A stretch of 33,951 nucleotides of DNA from Treponema sp. (GTDB lineage: Bacteria > Spirochaetota > Spirochaetia > Treponematales > Breznakiellaceae): contig WQSW01000005.1 of assembly GCA_009787695.1 (NCBI GenBank), positions 40,668 through 74,618 of the forward strand, read 5' to 3'. This document shows positions 1 through 12,719 of this stretch, one piece after another. Position numbers and translations under genes: made by a program. Each line of letters begins with the position of its first letter. Positions within the stretch are counted from its first letter, which is position 1. The notes beneath the pieces were generated by a model. It ran no database searches, had not been told where the DNA came from, and saw nothing but the letters and a program-made list of their open reading frames with translations.

Positions 1-581
1 GTCTTTCCTGAAATTGATGCATAGGCTGCTGTTATTGCACTTTGTAAAGAACTAACATTAGCCTTTAACGGGTCTTGCCCTAATAAATCATATAAATCAT
101 TTTTTCCGGCTGTTCTTAAAAGTTTATCTATTTTATCATAAGTAAGAAAATCTAAAGTTTTTGACGTATCGTCAATTATTTTAACACCTTGTCCCAATAA
201 GTATTGGGATTCTTTTTCTATTTCGTCAGCTGTTACCCATTTACCTATTTTTTCAACTGTTTTTTTAAAATCACTTTTATAAATAGTTCCGCGCCCTTTT
301 GCAATCAGTTCGATTGTTTTTTTTGCTTCTTCCAATCTGAATTTTTTTGCAGCCTGAAACTCTTCGTCACGAAGCGCTTTATCTGTCATTATTTTTACAG
401 CTTCTGTGTATAAGTCTTTTAATCTGCGCTGAACAACCGTCCCTTGTGTCCAGTTATTTTTACGTGTAGCCATTGCCGTTTCAATCTTCTTTGTATCTTT
501 CTCGGCAGGATCTATACCAAACGCAAAGTAATAATTAAAATCGGGATTATCTAATTCATCTAATGTTCTTAATGTGTCCAT
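1..581 (-). CDS. J-domain-like co-chaperone, 3' part cut by window edge
   Basis: Reading from an ATG at 579-581, 193 codons are open to the window edge with no stop, so the C-terminus is missing. The start lies 18 bases after the stop of the Hsp70-vWA gene, as the fourth gene of a leftward chaperone operon. Residues 17-25 read YYFAFGIDP and residues 162-171 read DLYDLLGQDP. Both resemble helix I of J-domains (Y-x-x-L-G), and both are followed by spaced Ile/Leu/Ala as in helix II. No HPD tripeptide follows the first module, and the equivalent part of the second module lies outside the window. Between them is a charged helical stretch. With GrpE-like and Hsp70 partners next door, a J-type co-chaperone role is a reasonable inference, but it rests on weak local similarity and context. 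It could instead be an unrelated helical partner. Confidence 0.6.
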   Translation of the reverse strand, partial: MDTLRTLDELDNPDFNYYFAFGIDPAEKDTKKIETAMATRKNNWTQGTVVQRRLKDLYTEAVKIMTDKALRDEEFQAAKKFRLEEAKKTIELIAKGRGTIYKSDFKKTVEKIGKWVTADEIEKESQYLLGQGVKIIDDTSKTLDFLTYDKIDKLLRTAGKNDLYDLLGQDPLKANVSSLQSAITAAYASISGK

Positions 582-599
582 ATTTTTACTCTTTTTTTA

Positions 600-2690
600 T
601 TATTTCTCCGTTGCAATACTTCCCGCTATATCTAAAAAAGTCTGGCTTAATTTATTTAAATCAACCTTGTGAGCGTTAGAAGCATCGGATGCAATTGAAC
701 ATAAAAATGCAAGGTCTGCATCTCCTAAGCCGATAGCATATATTTTTTTATCACTGTTTTTTAATTTTTGGGCTGCCTGCTGCTCTTTGCTTTGCTTATC
801 CCACACTCCGTCAGTAAGTACAATAATTATTTGATTTCCTCTTTCTGACGAAAATTTATCGCCGCAATCCGATAAGGGCGAAGCGGAAGTAGAGCCTCCG
901 CAGCCGTTTGAACCTAAACTGGAAATAGCTTTTTCAATTGTTCTGGAATTATTTTCGGATTTACATGCAAATTTGCTAGTATCGGCAAAATCAACTATCG
1001 ATACTTTTGCAAATGTTAAATCAATCTGAGCGACAAAATCTTTACAGGCTTTCATCGCTTCTTTGAGCGGTTGCCCTTCCATTGAGCCTGATGTATCAAC
1101 CATAAACATAACTTCAAATTCGCGTGCAAGTCTCTTGCGCTCTTCATTCTCCCGGATAAGCCTGTTAATTAAATCTTCTATCGATTCGTTAATTACAGAT
1201 TTTTCAACAGTTAGCCTGCTTCCGTCTTTTGAATCAACTTTAACATCTACAACTCCGTCTTTGTCATAAATAAAGTTAAGTTTAAATTCTGATTTTATTC
1301 CTCTGGAAAATCCTTTTACACAATATTTATATAAAAGCGTACAATCACGCGGTTCTGAAGATTCACCTTGTAAAACATAAACATCCAAATTATCACCGCT
1401 GAAAGTATAGTCTTTGCCGAATGGTGTATTTAAGGGGCTGTTTTTCTTTATAATGATACTGTTTATAAAATTAGTTTCATCTTTTGTAAAAGCCAGCATT
1501 CCCAAACTATGCGATGTTATATCTTGAATTGCATCTCCTGTAATTACAAGCCGCTGTTTCGCGCTTCCACCGCCTGAGGCTGCACGGGAACCCGATCCGC
1601 CTAAAACGAGTTTATTTTCCACACAAAGCTGCGCCTGCATCGCGGCTCCCGCTGCAACTATCGTGTCTACATCAATATTTTTTGTAACAGGTTCGCGTCC
1701 GAATTCACGGCGGACAAATTCTTTAACTTGCAGCATTCTGGTAGAGCCGCCGACTAAAACAACTTCATCAACATCTTTCCAAGAAAAATTTGTTTTTCTT
1801 TCTTTTCCCAATTCAGAAAAACATCGATCTATTAAAAGACTTGTTTCGTTTAACAAACTATATGTTGCAGAATCAAAAAATTCGCGCGTAATTTCATATT
1901 TTCCTGTATATCCCTGACTTTGAACTACAGCGGTTGTCGAACTCATACTGGTAAGTCTTTTTTTAATATCTTCGCATTGCACTTTAAGCTGATAATAATC
2001 CTCTGAATTATCTTCAAGATTGACGCTGAATTCATCAAAAAATTTGCGTTTTAAATCATCGGCTATTACCGCATCCCAATCTTTTCCGCCCAACTGATGA
2101 TTACCGTTCGTTGTTAAAACTTTTACTTTAGTGCCGTCAACTTCCGCAATTGTTACGTCAAAAGTTCCGCCGCCTAAATCGTAAACCATTACATTCTTTT
2201 TTTTATCACCTGTTAATCCGTAGGCAATAATAGCGGCAGTCGGCTCATTAATTAATTTTAAAACCTTTATACCTGCCGCATTGCCTGCGTTTTCAGTAGC
2301 AAGACGCTGGGATTCATTAAAATATGCAGGGCATGTAATTACAGCCCCGTCGATCTTAACATTATTATGCTGCGATACATCTTTTATTAATTCTTTTAAG
2401 TAAAGTCCTGACAGAGCTTCCGGTGAATATTCTTTACCGTCAAGATACAAGGTATACCCTTTCTCACCCATCATGCTCTTATAAAAAGATGCGGCATTTA
2501 AATCACCGGAGCCTTGAAGCTGTTTTGCTTCATCGCCGATTCTTACTTTACCGTTCTCGATATGAGTTACAGACGGAGTATAATTCTTGTCATCAGAGTT
2601 TTTTAATATTTTTAATTCACCTGATTCATTGCTATAAACTGCAACTGCAGAATATGTTGTGCCAAGATCGATGCCTACATTAATACCCAT
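600..2690 (-). CDS. Hsp70-von Willebrand factor A fusion protein
   Basis: This 696-residue protein starts with a complete Hsp70 actin-fold ATPase. It shows the phosphate-1 loop DLGTTYS (8-14), the phosphate-2 loop DLGGGTFD (172-179) and the adenosine motif GGSTRM (314-319). A Gly/Ser-rich stretch (364-377) precedes a segment like the usual linker and early substrate-binding beta domain (DITSHSLGM, 391-399; beta strands to about 490). After a charged helix (500-523), where a normal Hsp70 has its helical lid, comes a von Willebrand A domain (about 524-696). Its metal-binding MIDAS residues look intact: DTSGS (532-536), Thr601 in GGST and Asp627 in LTDG. An AGAGG-type ribosome site sits about 7 bases before the ATG. 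The gene lies 27 bases after a second Hsp70. Hsp70s use ATP to bind and release unfolded segments; the vWA domain would add metal-dependent protein binding. The client is unknown. Confidence 0.9.
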   Translation of the reverse strand: MGINVGIDLGTTYSAVAVYSNESGELKILKNSDDKNYTPSVTHIENGKVRIGDEAKQLQGSGDLNAASFYKSMMGEKGYTLYLDGKEYSPEALSGLYLKELIKDVSQHNNVKIDGAVITCPAYFNESQRLATENAGNAAGIKVLKLINEPTAAIIAYGLTGDKKKNVMVYDLGGGTFDVTIAEVDGTKVKVLTTNGNHQLGGKDWDAVIADDLKRKFFDEFSVNLEDNSEDYYQLKVQCEDIKKRLTSMSSTTAVVQSQGYTGKYEITREFFDSATYSLLNETSLLIDRCFSELGKERKTNFSWKDVDEVVLVGGSTRMLQVKEFVRREFGREPVTKNIDVDTIVAAGAAMQAQLCVENKLVLGGSGSRAASGGGSAKQRLVITGDAIQDITSHSLGMLAFTKDETNFINSIIIKKNSPLNTPFGKDYTFSGDNLDVYVLQGESSEPRDCTLLYKYCVKGFSRGIKSEFKLNFIYDKDGVVDVKVDSKDGSRLTVEKSVINESIEDLINRLIRENEERKRLAREFEVMFMVDTSGSMEGQPLKEAMKACKDFVAQIDLTFAKVSIVDFADTSKFACKSENNSRTIEKAISSLGSNGCGGSTSASPLSDCGDKFSSERGNQIIIVLTDGVWDKQSKEQQAAQKLKNSDKKIYAIGLGDADLAFLCSIASDASNAHKVDLNKLSQTFLDIAGSIATEK

Positions 2691-2717: not shown

Positions 2718-4325
2718 TTATGTTAAAGTTGCTCTTTTTATTGCATCCATACCGGCAGTTGCCGCATCTCCTCCGATACGGACAGGCTTTACTGTTGTCG
2801 GTATATTATTTGTAAGATCAATAGCTGTTACGGTTAATTCTCCGTTGCAGTCTATATCAAAAATAATATTTATAGGTGCGTCTGCCGGCAATCCGGGAGT
2901 TAATGTAATCAAGCATGATTCATACATTTCTTTGCTTTCTTCCATCGATGCATCTTTTTCCAGAATTATATTTTCAAAAACACGTAAATTGATATTGCTT
3001 TGATTTGCACAAGATGTTCCGAATTCGCGTTCTTCATGTGCCGGTTTAACAGTATCTTTTAAAATAATATTTCCTACCATTTCTTTGCCGTTTTGCAGCG
3101 CAACTACACCGTAACTCTTTGTACATTTTTCTATAAATGTTGTAGTAGAACCGTCTGCATTCTGGATTTCAATAGCACCCGCTTCTCCGCCCAATACCGC
3201 TTTTCCTCCTGAAGATGAAGAGCCGGCACTGCCGCTTGATGCATCAACACTTGCGCCGTTTGCAACTAATGCCGCACCCATTGCAACTGCCTTATCGGGT
3301 TCAAACGAACTGATCGGTTTTCCGTATGTTTGCTCCAGTTTTTGTTGTATTTGAGGCATTCTTGTAGAACCGCCGACAAGAATAATTTCGTCTATATCTT
3401 TTGCCATTACCATATCTTTTGCAGTTAACATTTGGTCAACTAAAAGTATTGTTCTTTCAAGTTCGGCAGTTGTTACATTGTCAAAGGCTTCGCGTGTTAT
3501 TTCAATTTTCTCTTTCTCGCCGTTAAACGAAACTGTAAGCACTGTTGATGTTTTGCTTGTAAGCAATTTTTTTGCTTTTTCTATATTTTCAGAAAACCAT
3601 GCTCTTGATTCTGCATCGTTCTCCATATCTTCAACGCTGACACCTTTGCTTTGTGCAAACTCATTGCGTACATAATCTGAAAGACGCGCATCCCAGTCTT
3701 TGCCGCCTAATTGATGATCTCCGCCTGTTGTTATCTGCTCCATTTCTTTTGAGTCGCCTTGAAAATTGATTTTTAAAACAGTGCAGTCGAATGTACCGCC
3801 GCCAAGGTCGTAAACTAAAACGGTTTTTTGCATATCTTCCTGACGCGAATAACCGTAAGCAAGCCCTGCAGCAACAGGTTCATCTAATATTTTTATTACA
3901 TTTACTCCTGCGCCTTCACCTGCGGCTTTTGTAGCTGCACGCGCCGCATCGCCGAAATATGCGGGGCATGTAATTACAGCTCCGTCAATTGAATCGCCTA
4001 AATAAGTCTGCGCATCGCGGACAAGTTTTTGCAGTATTACAGATGAAACTGCAGAAGAAGAATAATCAACTCCGTCCTGTGTAATTGAAAAATTAGGATC
4101 GCCCATATAATTCTTTACACGTTCTACAAGTCTTTCCGGCGTAAGAGCGCCTTCCTGACGTGCTGTAGAACCGACTGTAATCTCGTTGTTATCAGCAAAA
4201 TACACAACAGACGGTGTTATCTGCTCACCTTCGGAATTGTCAATAATTTTTACAATTCCGTTTTCATCAACAAAACTTACGCACGAATATGTTGTGCCTA
4301 AGTCGATACCGATTTTCTTTCCCAT
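2718..4325 (-). CDS. Hsp70 (DnaK-like) chaperone lacking the C-terminal lid
   Basis: At 535 residues this is about 100 shorter than housekeeping DnaK. The ATPase domain is complete: DLGTTYS (8-14), PAYF (121-124), DLGGGTFD (173-180) and GGSTRMP (318-324). The usual hydrophobic interdomain linker is not recognisable; residues 362-375 are a Gly/Ser tract instead. A beta-rich segment (about 395-515) with D-C-N-G-E-L-T-V-T-A near 492-501 matches the end of the DnaK substrate-binding beta domain. The protein then stops within about 20 residues, so the helical lid is absent. It shares blocks such as the PAYF and GGKDWDA regions with the Hsp70-vWA protein, so the two are probably duplicates. It lies second in the operon, 27 bases after the GrpE-like gene. 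It should hydrolyse ATP, but substrate holding is likely unlike DnaK. It is not expected to be the cell's main DnaK. Confidence 0.92.
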   Translation of the reverse strand: MGKKIGIDLGTTYSCVSFVDENGIVKIIDNSEGEQITPSVVYFADNNEITVGSTARQEGALTPERLVERVKNYMGDPNFSITQDGVDYSSSAVSSVILQKLVRDAQTYLGDSIDGAVITCPAYFGDAARAATKAAGEGAGVNVIKILDEPVAAGLAYGYSRQEDMQKTVLVYDLGGGTFDCTVLKINFQGDSKEMEQITTGGDHQLGGKDWDARLSDYVRNEFAQSKGVSVEDMENDAESRAWFSENIEKAKKLLTSKTSTVLTVSFNGEKEKIEITREAFDNVTTAELERTILLVDQMLTAKDMVMAKDIDEIILVGGSTRMPQIQQKLEQTYGKPISSFEPDKAVAMGAALVANGASVDASSGSAGSSSSGGKAVLGGEAGAIEIQNADGSTTTFIEKCTKSYGVVALQNGKEMVGNIILKDTVKPAHEEREFGTSCANQSNINLRVFENIILEKDASMEESKEMYESCLITLTPGLPADAPINIIFDIDCNGELTVTAIDLTNNIPTTVKPVRIGGDAATAGMDAIKRATLT

Positions 4326-4352
4326 GTTAATCTCCTTTTAATATTAAAAATT

Positions 4353-5390
4353 TTATTGTAATTTATAAACATCTACTTTAGATTGATATATTACTTTACC
4401 GTCAAATGAATAACAATCTGTGTAACTATTCACTATAGTTCTGTCAAGGCTCTCATCTGTTGTCGGAATTGTTTTTAAAATTTTATGCTTTTGTGTGTCA
4501 AACTCGCCTTTTAATGTTTCTATTATAACTTCCGCTTCTGTCAGAATAACATAGATTCCTTTTCCTGTTTCAACAAGGATATCGTGATATAATTTTAAAA
4601 GTTGCTCCCCAGAAAGAGTGCCGGCAGGTTTACTCTTTTCAGAAATCTTGTCGTATAAAGCATAAAGCGATTTTGCTACAGGAGCTGCTAATGCAAAATA
4701 ATGCTCTGCATCGGTTCTGGACGCTAAAGCAATATAATCTTGCAGTGTTTTATCAATTACAGATTTCTTTTGAATCGCAAGCCTTACAGCGCTTTCGCAA
4801 TTTTTTAAATATTCGATAAGCTCAGAAGTATTTTTTATTTTGTCTGTATTACTTAATATTGTTTCTTCTTCTTTTTGTTCGCCCTCAAGAATTTCTGCAA
4901 ATAATTTTTGTTCGGATCTTGGTGAAGTATAAAGAGGTTTTCCGTTCATAGTAATTTCTTTATTCCGCTCTAATCCGATATTGGAAAACATTTCTTCAAA
5001 ATCGGAAACAAGATAATCAATATATTTTTTTGCTTTTTCATCGTCTAATGCAAACTGTTTTGCATCTCTTAAAGATTTACGGCAGTCTTCACGCAATGCG
5101 ATAAGCGCAATTATAAATGGTTTTAAAGCGGAATATGCAAAACCTTCACGGTACTTTTGAATTTCCGCGCTTATTTTTTGTATCGATTCATCTTTTGTTT
5201 TGTTATATCTAAGTAATGCAGCAATTTCTGAATAACGTTTATCAAGCAAAGCTTTCAACTGAGTCCATTCTGCTTCAGAAATTTCAAAGCTTAATTGTTT
5301 TTTATCACAGCAATTATCAGCGCAGCAAGCATCGGGTTTTTCTGTCTGTGCAAACTCTGTTTGTGCAGTTTCTTTTTCAGTGTCAGGCAC
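4353..5390 (-). CDS. GrpE-like nucleotide exchange factor of the accessory Hsp70 operon
   Basis: This 345-residue cytosolic protein opens the leftward operon. It starts at GTG (5388-5390), supported by a GGAGG ribosome site 6 bases upstream. Residues 1-40 are polar and hold a paired-cysteine cluster (ACCADNCC, 21-28) and the repeated words AQTE-F-AQTE (9-17). Residues 60-110 form a charged helix followed by ALKPFIIALIALREDC, which follows the GrpE pattern of a long dimer helix running into the hydrophobic four-helix segment. The rest (165-345) is helical and matches nothing I recognise, and the protein is much longer than the roughly 200 residues of GrpE. Position directly before two Hsp70 genes supports a role in swapping ADP for ATP on them. 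The domain call is by pattern only. The cysteines could bind a metal and give redox or zinc sensitivity; that is speculation. Confidence 0.7.
   Translation of the reverse strand: MPDTEKETAQTEFAQTEKPDACCADNCCDKKQLSFEISEAEWTQLKALLDKRYSEIAALLRYNKTKDESIQKISAEIQKYREGFAYSALKPFIIALIALREDCRKSLRDAKQFALDDEKAKKYIDYLVSDFEEMFSNIGLERNKEITMNGKPLYTSPRSEQKLFAEILEGEQKEEETILSNTDKIKNTSELIEYLKNCESAVRLAIQKKSVIDKTLQDYIALASRTDAEHYFALAAPVAKSLYALYDKISEKSKPAGTLSGEQLLKLYHDILVETGKGIYVILTEAEVIIETLKGEFDTQKHKILKTIPTTDESLDRTIVNSYTDCYSFDGKVIYQSKVDVYKLQ
5349..5366 (-). repeat. 18-base dispersed motif, copy 1
   Basis: On the minus strand this reads GCACAAACAGAGTTTGCA. It is identical over 18 bases to the copy at 17830-17847. 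It lies inside the start of the GrpE-like gene, 24 bases downstream of the GTG, and encodes AQTEFA in frame. Confidence 0.6.
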
Positions 5391-5584
5391 AAATTACCTC
5401 CATTTTAAGGGTAAAGGAATTATATATTATACTTTTAATTCTTTCTACTAATTTTGATAAAAAAAATAAAATAAAAACGCATAGGGGCGCAACATAAACA
5501 CATATTTATACAATTGACAAAAAAGCAATTAACATGTGACAATTTATTATAATCAGAAATTATATTTATTAAAAGGGGGATTTT
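5391..5584. promoter_or_regulatory. Divergent promoter region between Hsp70 and SPFH operons
   Basis: This very AT-rich 194-base spacer separates two divergent operons and must hold both promoters. On the minus strand, TATAAT boxes occur at 5426-5431 and 5419-5424, with only a poor -35 match. On the plus strand there is a TTGACA at 5514-5519 and a TATAAT at 5548-5553, but they are 28 bases apart, so they do not form a normal sigma-70 pair. A GTGACA at 5536-5541 is followed by weak -10 options. I find no CIRCE heat-shock operator. The unusual spacing hints at an activator or another sigma factor, or at a weak promoter. The ribosome site for the plus-strand gene is the AAAAGGGGGA run ending at 5580. 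Confidence 0.5.
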
Positions 5585-6853
5585 ATGGGGTTAATCAAAG
5601 CATTAACAGGAGCTGTGGGCGGCACATTAGCCGATCAATGGCTTGAATTCTTTGTTTGCGAGAGTTTGGATGCAGATGTGCTTGCGGCAAAGGGGCAAAA
5701 AAGGATTAGCGGCAGAAGCAGTAATACTAAAGGGGAAGATAATATTATCTCTAACGGTTCAGGTATTGTTGTAAATAAGGGACAGGCTGCTATCATTGTC
5801 GACAACGGGCGTATAATGGAATTCTGCTCGGAAGAAGGGAAATACACTTACGATCAATCAAGCGAATCCAGTATTTTTTACGGAGGCCTCGATAAAAGTA
5901 TCGTAGGTATTTTTAAAAGCATTGGAGATCGTATTAAACACGGCGGAAGCCCCGGAAAAGATCAGCGTATCTATTATTTTAATACTAAAGAAATAATGTC
6001 TAATAAATACGGCACTCCAAACCCTATTCCCTATCTTATTGTTGATCCCAACATCAACCTCCGCCTTACTATCAGCCTTAGGGCAAACGGCGAATATTCA
6101 TACAGGATGATAAATCCCATTTTATTTTACAGCAATGTATGCGGAAATGTTGAAGACCTTTACACAAGAGATAAGATTGACAGCCAATTAAAAAGCGAAA
6201 TAATAACCGTTCTTGGACCTTCACTTGGAAAATTAGGGACAGGGATGGAATACCATGAAATTTCTTTTCAGACCGAAAGACTGGCTGAACTCCTTAACGA
6301 AGCGCTCAGCAATAAATGGAGGGAAGTACGCGGTATAGAAATTGTCAACTTTGGAATAACTTGTACAGCCCCGAAAGAAGACGAAGACCGCATCAAACAG
6401 CTCCAGACGGCAGCTGTAATGCGCGATCCTACAATGGCAGCCGCCTCTCTTGTAAACGCTCAAGGCGATGCGATGAGAACAGCAGCGGGAAACACCGCAG
6501 GTGCGATGACAGGTTTTATGGGTATGGGTATGGCAGGGCAAGCCGGCGGAATGAATCCCCAGTCTCTTTTCCAAATGGGAGCGCAGCAACAGCAAGCGGC
6601 TCCTCCCCAACCGGCAGCAGGCGGTTGGGCATGTCCTTGCGGAAAAGCGGGTAACACAGGAAAGTTCTGCGCCGATTGCGGACAGCCTGCTCCCGTTCAA
6701 GGCTGGACCTGCCCATGCGGTCATGCCGGTAATTCAGGAAAATTCTGCGCTGACTGCGGCAAACCCGCCCCTTCAGGCGATTGGACTTGTGCATGCGGAA
6801 AAGCAGGCAACACAGGAAAGTTCTGCGCTGACTGCGGCAAACCAAAACCCTGA
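5585..6853 (+). CDS. SPFH/band-7 protein with three C-terminal zinc ribbons (YdjI-like)
   Basis: This 422-residue protein has no signal peptide. An SPFH (band 7, stomatin-like) domain fills about residues 30-275. It includes the YFNTKEIMSNKYGTP region and the REVRGIEIVNFGITC strand that ends the fold. A Met/Gly/Gln-rich linker (about 285-345) follows. Three near-identical 26-residue zinc ribbons (from Trp348) each carry W-x-C-x-C-G, then F-C-A-D-C-G, giving four cysteines per copy. SPFH proteins form large membrane-associated assemblies. The order of this gene, then a zinc-ribbon membrane protein, then a TPM protein matches the Bacillus subtilis ydjG-ydjH-ydjI set, where YdjI is reported to be brought to the membrane by the other two. 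The gene is 14 bases upstream of the next one. No pspA is nearby; an Hsp70 operon diverges instead. Confidence 0.9.
   Translation: MGLIKALTGAVGGTLADQWLEFFVCESLDADVLAAKGQKRISGRSSNTKGEDNIISNGSGIVVNKGQAAIIVDNGRIMEFCSEEGKYTYDQSSESSIFYGGLDKSIVGIFKSIGDRIKHGGSPGKDQRIYYFNTKEIMSNKYGTPNPIPYLIVDPNINLRLTISLRANGEYSYRMINPILFYSNVCGNVEDLYTRDKIDSQLKSEIITVLGPSLGKLGTGMEYHEISFQTERLAELLNEALSNKWREVRGIEIVNFGITCTAPKEDEDRIKQLQTAAVMRDPTMAAASLVNAQGDAMRTAAGNTAGAMTGFMGMGMAGQAGGMNPQSLFQMGAQQQQAAPPQPAAGGWACPCGKAGNTGKFCADCGQPAPVQGWTCPCGHAGNSGKFCADCGKPAPSGDWTCACGKAGNTGKFCADCGKPKP
6626..6850 (+). repeat. Three tandem 78-base units encoding zinc ribbons
   Basis: Units begin at 6626, 6704 and 6782 (the last is cut to 69 bases by the stop codon). 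Each encodes Trp, a CxCG pair and a CADCG pair. The constant 26-codon period and near-identical words such as GKFCADCG show recent in-frame duplication within the SPFH gene. Confidence 0.9.
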
Positions 6854-6866
6854 TTAGGATAAATAA

Positions 6867-7955
6867 ATGGAAATAAAAGAATATAAATGTCCTAACTGCG
6901 GCGGAGCGGTTAAGTTTGACAGTTCAACCCAAAGCATGAAATGCCCTTACTGTGATGCGGAATTTGAAATAAAAGCTTTAGAAGAGTACCAAAAAGAACT
7001 TGCGGTTGCAGATAAAGACGCCTTCGGCTGGGATGAAAACACAAATCTTAAAGAATGGGAAGAAGATGAGTTAAACGATCTTACACAGGGCTCCTGCCCG
7101 TCTTGCGGATCGGAACTGCTGGGAGATAAAAATACAGCGGCGATGGTTTGCCCTAACTGCGGCAATACACAGATAGTGCTAAGGCGTTTAACAGGTTTAT
7201 TAAAACCTGAATTTGTTATTCCTTTTAAACTGGATAAAAAGAAAGCTGTTGAAGCGCTTAAAAACTTTTATAAAGGAAAACGTCTTCTTCCTGATTCATT
7301 TAATAATGAAAACCGCATCAACAGTATACAAGGTGTTTATCTTCCATTCTGGCTTTTTGATGCAAGCGCTTCAGGGCATGTCCGATACAAAGCGACAAAA
7401 ACAAAAGTGTGGCGCGACTCGCAATACAGTTATACAAAAACAGATCACTACTCCATTGTCCGTGACGGAGGCATGACATTTGAAAAAATACCTGTTGACG
7501 GCTCGGAAAAAATGGATGACAGCTACATGGATGCAATAGAACCGTTTGTTTTTGCCGAGATAAAAGATTTTGCAACCGCTTTTCTTTCAGGCTATATTGC
7601 GGAAAAATATGATGTTGATGCAGATAACAGCAAAGGAAGAGCGGAAAAAAGAATCAAGAAAACAGTAGAAAATGAATTCAGGCAATCTGTTTCCGGATAT
7701 CAAACTGTTCAAGTTGAGAATTCTGCTGTCAGCGTAGAAAACGGCAAAGTAAGTTACAGTTTACTGCCTGCATGGATTTTAAACACAAAATACAAAAACG
7801 AAACTTATATGTTTTTGATGAACGGGCAAACAGGAAAACTTGTAGGAAGATTACCTGTCGATCAAGGCAAAGTATGGAAGTACAGGCTTATGTATACAGG
7901 CATTATCGGAGCGGTTTTTACGCTTATTATTCAAGCATTACGCATCTTCACATAG
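6867..7955 (+). CDS. Zinc-ribbon membrane protein (YdjG-like)
   Basis: This 362-residue protein has two N-terminal zinc ribbons: CPNCGG with CPYC (residues 8-33) and CPSCG with CPNCG (about 76-98). A long soluble domain follows with LPFWLFDASASGHVRYKA near residue 155-172, typical of the TFIIB-type zinc-ribbon family annotated in many bacteria. One hydrophobic segment (about 342-360, YTGIIGAVFTLIIQALRIF) ends the chain, so it should be tail-anchored with the ribbons in the cytoplasm. In Bacillus the homologous YdjG works with YdjH to dock the SPFH protein at the membrane. The shared zinc-ribbon theme with the upstream SPFH protein fits a direct contact. The upstream ribosome site is weak (AGGAT). 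Family assignment is by motif and gene order. Confidence 0.85.
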   Translation: MEIKEYKCPNCGGAVKFDSSTQSMKCPYCDAEFEIKALEEYQKELAVADKDAFGWDENTNLKEWEEDELNDLTQGSCPSCGSELLGDKNTAAMVCPNCGNTQIVLRRLTGLLKPEFVIPFKLDKKKAVEALKNFYKGKRLLPDSFNNENRINSIQGVYLPFWLFDASASGHVRYKATKTKVWRDSQYSYTKTDHYSIVRDGGMTFEKIPVDGSEKMDDSYMDAIEPFVFAEIKDFATAFLSGYIAEKYDVDADNSKGRAEKRIKKTVENEFRQSVSGYQTVQVENSAVSVENGKVSYSLLPAWILNTKYKNETYMFLMNGQTGKLVGRLPVDQGKVWKYRLMYTGIIGAVFTLIIQALRIFT

Positions 7956-7963
7956 GAGTTATT

Positions 7964-8758
7964 ATGAAAAAATATTCATTAAAACTATTTATACTAACAT
8001 TTATTATATTGATAACCTTACCTAAAGCTTACGCACAAGAAAGAATAATTGATAATGCATCTCTTTTAAACATAAACGAAAAAGCGACTCTTTCCGGACT
8101 TATTGATACACTTTCCAGAACCTATAATTTTGATTTTATTATTTTAACGGAAAAAAATATCGGCAGTAAAACACCTATGGAATATGCCGCTGATTTTTTT
8201 GATAACAACGGTTATGGTTTTGGAAATAACAGAGACGGCTGCATATTTTTACAGGTAACAGACAGCAGGGATTATTGGTTCAGCACATCAGGCAGGGGGA
8301 TAAAAATCTTCACTTCCAGTGCAGAGAAAAAAACAGAATCAGAAATGGTAAAATATCTTCAAGCCGGAGATTATTACAGCGCTTATTATACCATTTTATA
8401 CTACTGGGAAAAATTCTTAGAACTTGATGCAAAAGGAAGACGCTATAATTTTTTCCATGAATGGAATATACTCCTTGTAATAATCTCTTGGGCGTTATCA
8501 TTTTTAATCGGATTAGGCGTAGTAAGCGGCTGGAGAAAAGGTATGAACACCGCTCTTATGCAAACTCAAGCTTCCGCCTATGTAGTTCCTGGAAGCCTTG
8601 CATTTAAAGTAAAGGATGATAAATTTCTTTTCAGTACAGTAACAAAAACAAAAATACAAAGTAACAGCAATAATACGATAAGCAGCGGCGGAGGCGGCGG
8701 AAGGTCTCATACAAGCTCTTCCGGGAGGAGCCATGGCGGAGGCGGAGGAAAGTATTAG
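7964..8758 (+). CDS. TPM-domain secreted/membrane protein (YdjH/YgcG-like)
   Basis: Translation should begin at the ATG at 7964, with AGGAG (7954-7958) 5 bases upstream. The frame is open further upstream, but only within the previous gene. The 264-residue product has a signal peptide (1-24, ending AYA-Q). A TPM domain follows (about 28-150) with the family landmarks DNASLLN near the start, the GYGFGNNRDG block and YYSAYYTILYYWEKFLE. One membrane segment lies at about 167-186. The Gly/Ser/His-rich tail ends in GGGGGKY, a habit of YgcG-type proteins. The TPM domain would lie outside the inner membrane. It is last in the SPFH operon and is the likely outward-facing partner of the zinc-ribbon membrane protein. 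Function of TPM domains is poorly known; phosphatase activity has been reported for some. Confidence 0.88.
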   Translation: MKKYSLKLFILTFIILITLPKAYAQERIIDNASLLNINEKATLSGLIDTLSRTYNFDFIILTEKNIGSKTPMEYAADFFDNNGYGFGNNRDGCIFLQVTDSRDYWFSTSGRGIKIFTSSAEKKTESEMVKYLQAGDYYSAYYTILYYWEKFLELDAKGRRYNFFHEWNILLVIISWALSFLIGLGVVSGWRKGMNTALMQTQASAYVVPGSLAFKVKDDKFLFSTVTKTKIQSNSNNTISSGGGGGRSHTSSSGRSHGGGGGKY

Positions 8759-10912: not shown

Positions 10913-12679
10913 TTACCTCTCACCTAAAAAGACCTTTAATTCCTGTATGCGGCTTATAATCTTGCTGCGCGTCATGTTTTTAAACTTTGCAGGAATCATC
11001 TCTTTGGAGGTACATTCCAAAGCCGCTACAAGGGTTTGAAGTTCCACTTCGTCAGGGTAGGCTGCAGGCTGGAAATCGCTCATCGCTTCTTCCATGTCTT
11101 CTTTTTTAATAAATACGCGGTCATCAATGGCTGCGAGGTGCTCTGCACGGACAAGAACAGCTTCTAAATCTGCGCCTGAATATTCATGATCGTATTTTCT
11201 GAAAAGGTCTGTGATGGAAAAATTTCGTATATCTAATTTTAATTTTCTAACAAGGGTTTTGAATAAATCTTCTCTGTCTTTTTTTGACTCAGGATAAAAA
11301 AGGGCAAGATGCTCTTCGGCTCTTCCCTGCCTTTTTAAGTCGATTGGAATTAAATCGGGGCGGCATGTAATTAAAAACCAAATTATTTTTCCGCGATACT
11401 CTGTGTTTCCCATAAAAGATGCTATTTGCGCAAATACGCGGTTACTTGTGCCTGAGTCTCCTTCCTGATTGCGATCTCCTAAAAATGCATCCGCTTCGTC
11501 TACCATTACAGCAACCGGCGCCATTGCAACAAGAATATTTAAAACTTTTTCAAGATTTGATTCTGTTTCGCCCTGCCACTTTGTGCGGAAGTTACGGAAC
11601 TTTACCATCGGGATTCCTATCTCTCCTGCAAAGGCGTTAACCATAAAACTTTTTCCTGTCCCTACAGGTCCTGCCATTAAGTAGCCCATAGGAAGAACAT
11701 CGGGTCTTCCCCTTTTTATCGCTTTAACCGCATTTTTAAACCGCTTCTTTATATAATCATGCCCTGATACATGGGAAAGATCATAAGTAGTTTCCATAAA
11801 CTCTAAAAGCCCTCCGGCTTCGTTTTCGATAATTTCTTTTTTCTTTCTCCGCATAAACTCCAATGATAAAGGCTCATCTTTTTCAAAACTTTCAGAAGCA
11901 AGACGGTTTAGATTCATAAGATTTAAACCCGATGTAATAGCGGCTAACTTTTCAGGCGTTAACCCTTTATCAAGCAAAAGTTTTCCTTCCTTTTCTTTGG
12001 AGCGGAGATAACTTGCCCTTATTTTTTCATCAGGAAAGGGAACGCTTATTTTTACAGTCGAAGGAGAACTTGTAAGGCGCGAAGAAATATCAGAGAGATT
12101 TTCGGCTAACAAAATGACGGAAATATCGCCTTTTATAAATTTAGGATCTGTCGCCCATCTTTTAAAAGTTACAATGCAATAACGGTCTGTATCGGAAAGA
12201 CGGATTAAATCTCCTGCAGGGGCAATGTAATCTGCATGATCAATAATAAAAACCATGCGGCATTTTGTTTTTTTATCTTTTGGAATCTGAGAGAGAAAAT
12301 ATTTTTCGATATAAGGGAAACTTCTTTCCGGATCTGTAGAAAGAAAATCGCCGTTATCTGCATCAGAGCTAAGAGCAAATTTGGGAGCCGCCTCAAGATA
12401 TGCGCTCTCCATTTGCTGCTGGCAAAAAGTGATTCCGCTTGAACGGTCATAAAAAGCGATTATCTCCCTGTTTCCGAATAAAATTTCCGATATATAATCC
12501 TGCAATCTTGTAAAATTAAATTCCCCTTCTTTTCTTTCATGAGGAAGAAAATCCCTGATATTACCGTGCAGTATATATAAATTAGCGGTTTTTGATCGGT
12601 ATTTATTCGCCAGTTCCTGCGCCCACGCAGGCAAAACTTTAATAATATCGTTGTAATTGTAAATATATTGATCTGACAT
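10913..12679 (-). CDS. AAA+ ATPase with degenerate N-terminal AAA domain
   Basis: Two in-frame ATGs exist, at 12694 and 12679. The GGAGGGGG tract lies between them, 7 bases before the second, so 12679 is the better start (588 residues). The N-terminal half (about 20-240) has a decayed AAA fold: it starts NLYILHGNIRDFLP, keeps a Walker B-like FIIDHAD, and lacks a P-loop. The C-terminal AAA domain is intact, with GPVGTGKS (337-344), the Walker B MVDEAD (ending near 396) and a likely arginine finger in RQGRAEEH. A four-helix lid and a helical tail follow. The layout is like Ycf46-type proteins and AAA remodelers. The client is unknown. Its neighbours, a tRNA hydroxylation protein and a YitT protein, do not suggest one. 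Confidence 0.85.
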   Translation of the reverse strand: MSDQYIYNYNDIIKVLPAWAQELANKYRSKTANLYILHGNIRDFLPHERKEGEFNFTRLQDYISEILFGNREIIAFYDRSSGITFCQQQMESAYLEAAPKFALSSDADNGDFLSTDPERSFPYIEKYFLSQIPKDKKTKCRMVFIIDHADYIAPAGDLIRLSDTDRYCIVTFKRWATDPKFIKGDISVILLAENLSDISSRLTSSPSTVKISVPFPDEKIRASYLRSKEKEGKLLLDKGLTPEKLAAITSGLNLMNLNRLASESFEKDEPLSLEFMRRKKKEIIENEAGGLLEFMETTYDLSHVSGHDYIKKRFKNAVKAIKRGRPDVLPMGYLMAGPVGTGKSFMVNAFAGEIGIPMVKFRNFRTKWQGETESNLEKVLNILVAMAPVAVMVDEADAFLGDRNQEGDSGTSNRVFAQIASFMGNTEYRGKIIWFLITCRPDLIPIDLKRQGRAEEHLALFYPESKKDREDLFKTLVRKLKLDIRNFSITDLFRKYDHEYSGADLEAVLVRAEHLAAIDDRVFIKKEDMEEAMSDFQPAAYPDEVELQTLVAALECTSKEMIPAKFKNMTRSKIISRIQELKVFLGER

Positions 12680-12719
12680 TGGTCCCCCTCCCATGCCTCC
12701 CGAACTTAATAAAAAAACA

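Follow-up and report, generated by a model that had tools for sequence, protein, structure and literature searches.

Hsp70 proteins are among the most conserved proteins, and their lid is regarded as integral to how they work. In the stretch of DNA analyzed here, 33,951 nucleotides of a Treponema sp. contig (WQSW01000005.1, positions 40,668 to 74,618; hereafter, the window), a gene on the reverse strand was originally predicted, from the sequence alone, to encode an Hsp70 with a von Willebrand A (VWA) domain instead of this lid. The locus thus raises the question of whether such a fusion is genuine and, if so, what the VWA domain does in it. A family that keeps the ATPase and the SBD-beta portion of the substrate-binding domain (SBD) while swapping the lid amounts to a natural experiment on the lid's purpose. 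We found the fusion to be intact in 21 loci, and the explanation that we favor is that it serves a GAP1-N2-type double-GTPase system as its dedicated second Hsp70.

The gene (Table 1) is an open reading frame (ORF) free of internal stops and preceded by a Shine-Dalgarno-like AGAGG. Pfam assigned residues 5-525 to HSP70 (E = 4.6e-88; profile positions 2-524 of 599) and residues 527-676 to VWA (PF00092; E = 5.9e-18, above the cut-off). A chance VWA match was rejected on the basis of this E-value and of the conservation of the metal ion-dependent adhesion site (MIDAS). An AlphaFold2 model, for which 18 family members served as the alignment input (mean pLDDT, the predicted local distance difference test, 85.1), contained the nucleotide-binding domain (NBD), the SBD-beta strands (396-498), a single helix (504-523), and alternating strands and helices over residues 525-694; a Gly/Ser-rich stretch was modeled poorly (pLDDT <50 at residues 366-378). 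Residues 1-501 superposed on DnaK/BiP with Z-scores up to 48.7 and a root-mean-square deviation of 2.3 Å over 459 residues, the closest superposition being with the docked, ATP-type arrangement of Hsp70; Foldseek was also used for comparison. The match list of a fold search with the full model was filled by Hsp70 and hence held no separate fold match for the VWA part. Together, the Pfam matches and the model bear out the predicted Hsp70 with a VWA domain in place of its lid. According to the model, it is the helical lid (SBD-alpha) alone that is replaced, and the peptide-binding SBD-beta is retained. Because the VWA domain, rather than the SBD-alpha lid of the DnaK family, follows helix 504-523, full canonical DnaK membership is not claimed for the fusion.

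A search of 60 relatives yielded one full-length fusion, from the same genus and with 36% identity, and 393 genomes of the phylum yielded 2 further fusions beyond the window's own, one of them from a single-contig genome. When GTDB species genomes were scanned with an alignment of four fusions, 21 loci were recovered, 17 of which spanned the VWA domain, and a clostridial sample contributed 2 more fusions. The fusions came from Spirochaetota, from Bacillota, among them the isolate Ruminococcus flavefaciens Y1, and from genomes of the Acidobacteriota type (Holophagales, Aminicenantes). They are rare: of 391 genomes sampled from the Ruminococcus class, 3 carried one, query genome counted. Viral contig, phage, and plasmid collections contained no fusion, the plasmid matches being separate DnaK or VWA proteins, and a phage or plasmid origin was rejected on the basis of these collections. 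In all, 21 intact fusions from at least three phyla were compared. The genome under study is a draft of 115 contigs, and we found nothing in favor of an assembly or sequencing error that fused an Hsp70 gene to a VWA gene. The fusion ORF is intact in 20 other loci, each from a separate assembly and among them the single-contig genome and R. flavefaciens Y1. We therefore rejected a joined-gene artefact, the outcome that the original prediction had named as fatal to it, and regard its probability as negligible.

In a phylogenetic tree, the window protein grouped with a fusion from the clostridial class (L102; 54% identity, support 100/100), apart from the other spirochaete fusions (~35% identity). 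This placement indicates horizontal transfer of the fusion. Integrase-like ORFs, judged by eye, lie near the system in two loci (L072, 15936-19500; L090, 3093-4256), with a terminase-like ORF in L072, and are consistent with mobility.

Residues were counted across the 21 intact fusions, window protein included. In agreement with the prediction of intact ATPase motifs, the NBD residues T11, K71, E149, and T176 (T11, K70, E171, and T199 of DnaK) were invariant (21/21). All MIDAS residues had likewise been described as present. This is true of the window protein, which has all five (D532, S534, and S536 of the DTSGS motif at 532-536, T601, and D627), but only in part of the family: D532, S534, S536, and D627 were invariant in 21/21, whereas position 601 was Thr in 2 fusions (window and L102) and Asn in 18, with a gap in 1. 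In the HMMER alignment, Thr601 falls on the GRT/GKT threonine that structurally characterized TRAP proteins have in their VWA domain, which is the MIDAS threonine. Arg167 of DnaK contacts the HPD motif of J domains; the corresponding residue in the fusions was K (9), Q (6), A (4), S (1), or R (1). An alignment that included the genome's own DnaK revealed no counterpart of the DnaK linker KDVLLLD, its hydrophobic VLLL being degenerate, and a Gly/Ser-rich stretch stands ahead of the degenerate linker and SBD-beta. The pocket positions of SBD-beta remained largely hydrophobic. The fusion therefore resembles canonical DnaK in its NBD motifs, its SBD-beta fold, and the docked ATP-state arrangement of the model, and differs from it in the absence of the SBD-alpha lid and the VLLL linker, the changed Arg167 position, and the added VWA domain.

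Two homologs, from Balneolaceae (L091) and Lachnospiraceae (L092), have a homologous NBD and SBD-beta with another C-terminal domain and no VWA domain. Both are nested within the VWA-bearing clade with full support, the long branch of L092 calling for caution, and because of this position the VWA domain was probably replaced in them. The replacement domain, of ~160 residues, stands in the lid slot (L091, 6914-9169; L092, 8786-11035); it had no Pfam match, and a PDB sequence search returned only a weak, unconvincing one. Upstream, L092 also contains a separate secreted-type VWA gene (3553-5544), as does L082 (2644-4638).

For the function of the fusion, its operon membership is a better guide than its domains alone. 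The gaps on either side of the gene are only 18 and 27 bases, so that one transcript is expected, and the operon runs on downstream past the left edge of the window (L006). There it encodes a 1017-residue J-like/zinc-ribbon/FN3 protein, a 381-residue DO-GTPase2-like protein, a 99-residue membrane protein, a 484-residue DO-GTPase2, a 908-residue GAP1-N2 protein, and a BspA-type leucine-rich repeat (LRR) protein; an operon GTPase has hydrophobic membrane segments. The GAP1-N2 match (PF20013; 8.4e-17) was above the cut-off, and the DO-GTPase2 matches were 1.2e-15 for the 484-residue protein and 6.9e-6, slightly below the cut-off, for the 381-residue protein. In Bacillota and Acidobacteriota the gene order is GTPase, GrpE-like, Hsp70#2, Hsp70-VWA, J/FN3, GTPase, GAP1, and the core of this order is kept in Spirochaetota. 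Where the position of Hsp70#2 is visible, this gene almost always lies directly upstream of the fusion; J/FN3 follows the fusion, and GTPases flank the group. Among the clostridial GAP1-N2 loci sampled, the majority lacked Hsp70; one (L101) has one lidless Hsp70 and J/FN3 without VWA, and L102 has the complete set. Housekeeping DnaK and DnaJ are encoded elsewhere in the genome (C11). A duplicate of the housekeeping DnaK was rejected on this ground, and for the same reason the fusion is not the general chaperone. PADLOC defence models gave no convincing match among the operon proteins scanned.

Pfam did not recognize the N-terminus of the 1017-residue protein; fn3 was above the cut-off in its homolog from L087. 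When 285 residues of this homolog were modeled (pLDDT 83.7), the top PDB matches in Foldseek were J domains (probability 0.99-1.0; 2.3-2.8 Å over ~63 residues), with E-values near 1 (~0.8). The J fold, as judged from this model, is likely, not proven. The HPD motif was present in 0/12 of the J-like homologs and in all three J proteins recognized elsewhere in the genome. Because the partner lacks HPD and the Arg167 position is lost, and with the VLLL linker degenerate, these sequences suggest that canonical J-stimulation is not used by the fusion, and a textbook DnaJ-driven cycle is doubtful.

GTPase-centric conflict systems built around GAP1-N2, including an HSP70/GrpE theme, were described by Kaur, Burroughs, Iyer, and Aravind in 2020 (PMC7159879). 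In the main text of that report, the FN3 protein of this theme is given a DnaJ domain, and the second of its Hsp70s is without the peptide-binding domain; in other themes of the same class, vWA proteins occur as separate proteins, and MoxR-vWA pairs are interpreted as a chaperone with its co-chaperone. The window operon, compared with that text, is an instance of the HSP70/GrpE theme, sharing GAP1-N2, zinc-ribbon/transmembrane (TM) DO-GTPases, an FN3 protein with a likely J-type N-terminus, a GrpE-like protein, and two Hsp70 genes, one of them shortened. In contrast to the theme as described there, the long Hsp70 has a VWA domain for a lid, the J-like domains lack HPD, and the system occurs in spirochaetes and Acidobacteriota besides Bacillota. 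The eight mentions of HSP70 in the main text include no vWA fusion, and phrase searches of the literature returned no paper naming an Hsp70-VWA fusion. Within a known kind of predicted system, this domain architecture has apparently gone unremarked. Its VWA domain brings the Hsp70 theme into line with the other themes in the text of Kaur et al., which hints that these systems commonly require contact with a partner through a VWA domain. The fusion is also a concrete protein for probing GAP1-N2 systems experimentally.

Similar combinations are known from other systems. MoxR AAA+/vWA co-chaperone pairs also combine an ATPase chaperone with a VWA domain, whose presumed ligands are peptides or partners, although here the ATPase is an Hsp70 instead of an AAA+ protein and the VWA domain is fused rather than separate. 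Like the fusion, the PilZ-DnaK proteins CsdK1 and CsdK2 of Myxococcus xanthus (PMC10313047) are bacterial Hsp70s with an additional regulatory domain, but they are not described within a GTPase system. CnuD and CnuCD of the CoCoNuT systems (PMC11090510) contribute an Hsp70-like NBD/SBD to predicted defence machinery in which VWA proteins occur too; in contrast to the fusion, whose nucleotide sites are intact, theirs are described as degenerate, and the VWA domain is on a separate gene.

With the domain composition, the conserved residues, and the operon and its conservation across phyla established, we favor a model in which the fusion is an ATP-gated Hsp70 that contacts a component of the GTPase system through its VWA domain, instead of using that domain as a metal-dependent, client-capturing lid; the chances of this model being correct or not appear to us evenly balanced. 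This preference is based on the domain anatomy, the cross-phylum gene order, the GAP1-N2 and DO-GTPase matches, the correspondence with the theme in the main text of PMC7159879, the invariant D/S/S/D of the MIDAS, the swap in L091 and L092, the presence of DnaK and DnaJ elsewhere, and the loss of HPD and Arg167. The NBD, its motifs being observed, would bind and hydrolyze ATP and thereby toggle SBD-beta between docked and undocked states. The VWA domain, on its single-helix tether, would act as a protein-docking adaptor. Its metal site would be occupied by an acidic residue from another component of the system, the likeliest being the J-like/FN3 protein, a zinc-ribbon GTPase, or GAP1, and through this contact either that component or its client would be delivered to SBD-beta. 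Nucleotide resetting would fall to the GrpE-like protein, and the J-like domain may dock without HPD-type stimulation. The ATP cycle might then set the timing of assembly or firing of the GTPase-GAP1 complex near the membrane, if control runs in this direction, with invasion or envelope stress as the presumed trigger. Several points weigh against this model. Metal binding may be altered in a family in which the MIDAS Thr is mostly Asn, although the Asn could still coordinate metal. The window's GrpE and first GTPase scored under the Pfam cut-offs, and GAP1 was not recognized by Pfam in a spirochaete relative. The partner of the VWA domain is a predicted one, and the literature searched yielded no experiments on any Hsp70 theme of GAP1-N2 systems.

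The original prediction had instead implied client capture by a new mechanism under control of the ATPase cycle. In this reading, the VWA domain would be a functional lid substitute, closing over or beside SBD-beta and capturing clients through its metal site in step with ATP hydrolysis. In the model the VWA domain does occupy the exact start of SBD-alpha, after one helix, and both the largely hydrophobic pocket of SBD-beta and the conserved MIDAS D/S/S/D would suit such a role. However, a canonical lid acts via helices packed on SBD-beta, of which we found no equivalent, and the intact SBD-beta could bind peptide by itself. Moreover, an unrelated domain takes the place of the VWA domain in L091 and L092, the VLLL linker is degenerate behind a Gly/Ser-rich stretch, and the J-like partner lacks HPD. 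We consider this part of the prediction, a lid substitute, unlikely. It also seems improbable to us that the main role of the two Hsp70 paralogs is to assemble, depending on nucleotide, into a hetero-oligomer that includes the GTPases and in which the VWA domain would join protomers. The idea is present in outline in the main text of PMC7159879, which discusses multimeric assemblies and makes an outline proposal for tubulin and HSP70 components, and it accords with the adjacency of Hsp70#2 and the fusion and with the absence of a lid from both paralogs. No polymerization interface or structure is known for them, however, and the retained SBD-beta suggests peptide binding.

Compatible with any of these mechanisms is a membrane or envelope stress machine, as opposed to a system directed against invaders, in which the same complex would be triggered by envelope damage. 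The operon GTPase with membrane segments and the small membrane protein would fit this reading, and DO-GTPases are described as membrane-stress-related (PMC11237479). Next to the system, the window contains a divergent operon (5585-8758) for an SPFH/Band-7 protein with zinc ribbons, a zinc-ribbon/TM protein, and a TPM-domain protein, which resembles the ydjGHI portion of an operon linked to PspA but seems to lack PspA itself. In the other loci, however, these SPFH/TPM genes do not accompany the fusion, and it is defence that more typically shows such a sparse distribution with horizontal movement. We hold envelope damage as the trigger to be rather unlikely.

Returning to the adaptor model, the exchange seen in L091 and L092 raises a broader, tentative possibility, which we hold to be short of probable: that these proteins form a distinct class of Hsp70 whose lid slot is an exchangeable adaptor, mostly VWA and sometimes another domain, and which a J-like protein lacking HPD would drive together with a GrpE-like factor and GTPases. 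In such a class, the ATPase cycle would gate a GTPase immune or stress complex via metal-dependent partner contact.

Table 1. Position of the fusion gene and its operon neighbors in the window.
Feature	Position	Strand	Basis
Hsp70-VWA fusion, 696 residues: NBD ~1-358, Gly/Ser-rich linker ~360-390, SBD-beta ~396-498, helix 504-523, VWA 525-694	600..2690	-	Pfam, AlphaFold2 model, fold comparison
VWA domain, residues ~525-695, with D532/S534/S536, T601, D627	606..1118	-	Pfam, model, alignments
Second Hsp70 paralog (Hsp70#2), 535 residues: NBD and divergent SBD-beta-like region, without lid	2718..4325	-	Pfam HSP70 9.5e-97, alignment
GrpE-like nucleotide exchange factor, 345 residues, weak	4353..5390	-	Pfam GrpE 2e-5, 24.7 bits vs cut-off 25.8; homologs similarly placed in other loci
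First 193 residues of the 1017-residue protein: J-like domains (HPD absent), a double zinc ribbon, and repeats resembling FN3	1..581 (whole gene L006 8196-11249, remainder beyond window)	-	

Outside the operon, the window also encodes a 593-residue AAA+ ATPase (10913-12694) whose N-terminal half has no assignment. In another locus (L079, 11042-20411 and 4578-8825), four tandem J-like genes, some shortened and one with a membrane-like C-terminus, occur together with two Hsp70#2-like genes, which suggests local expansion of the system. The BspA-type protein at the end of the operon (L006, 1625-2491) matched LRR_5 with an E-value of 4.7e-24, and an LRR-like ORF is present in L083 (20028-20957) too.
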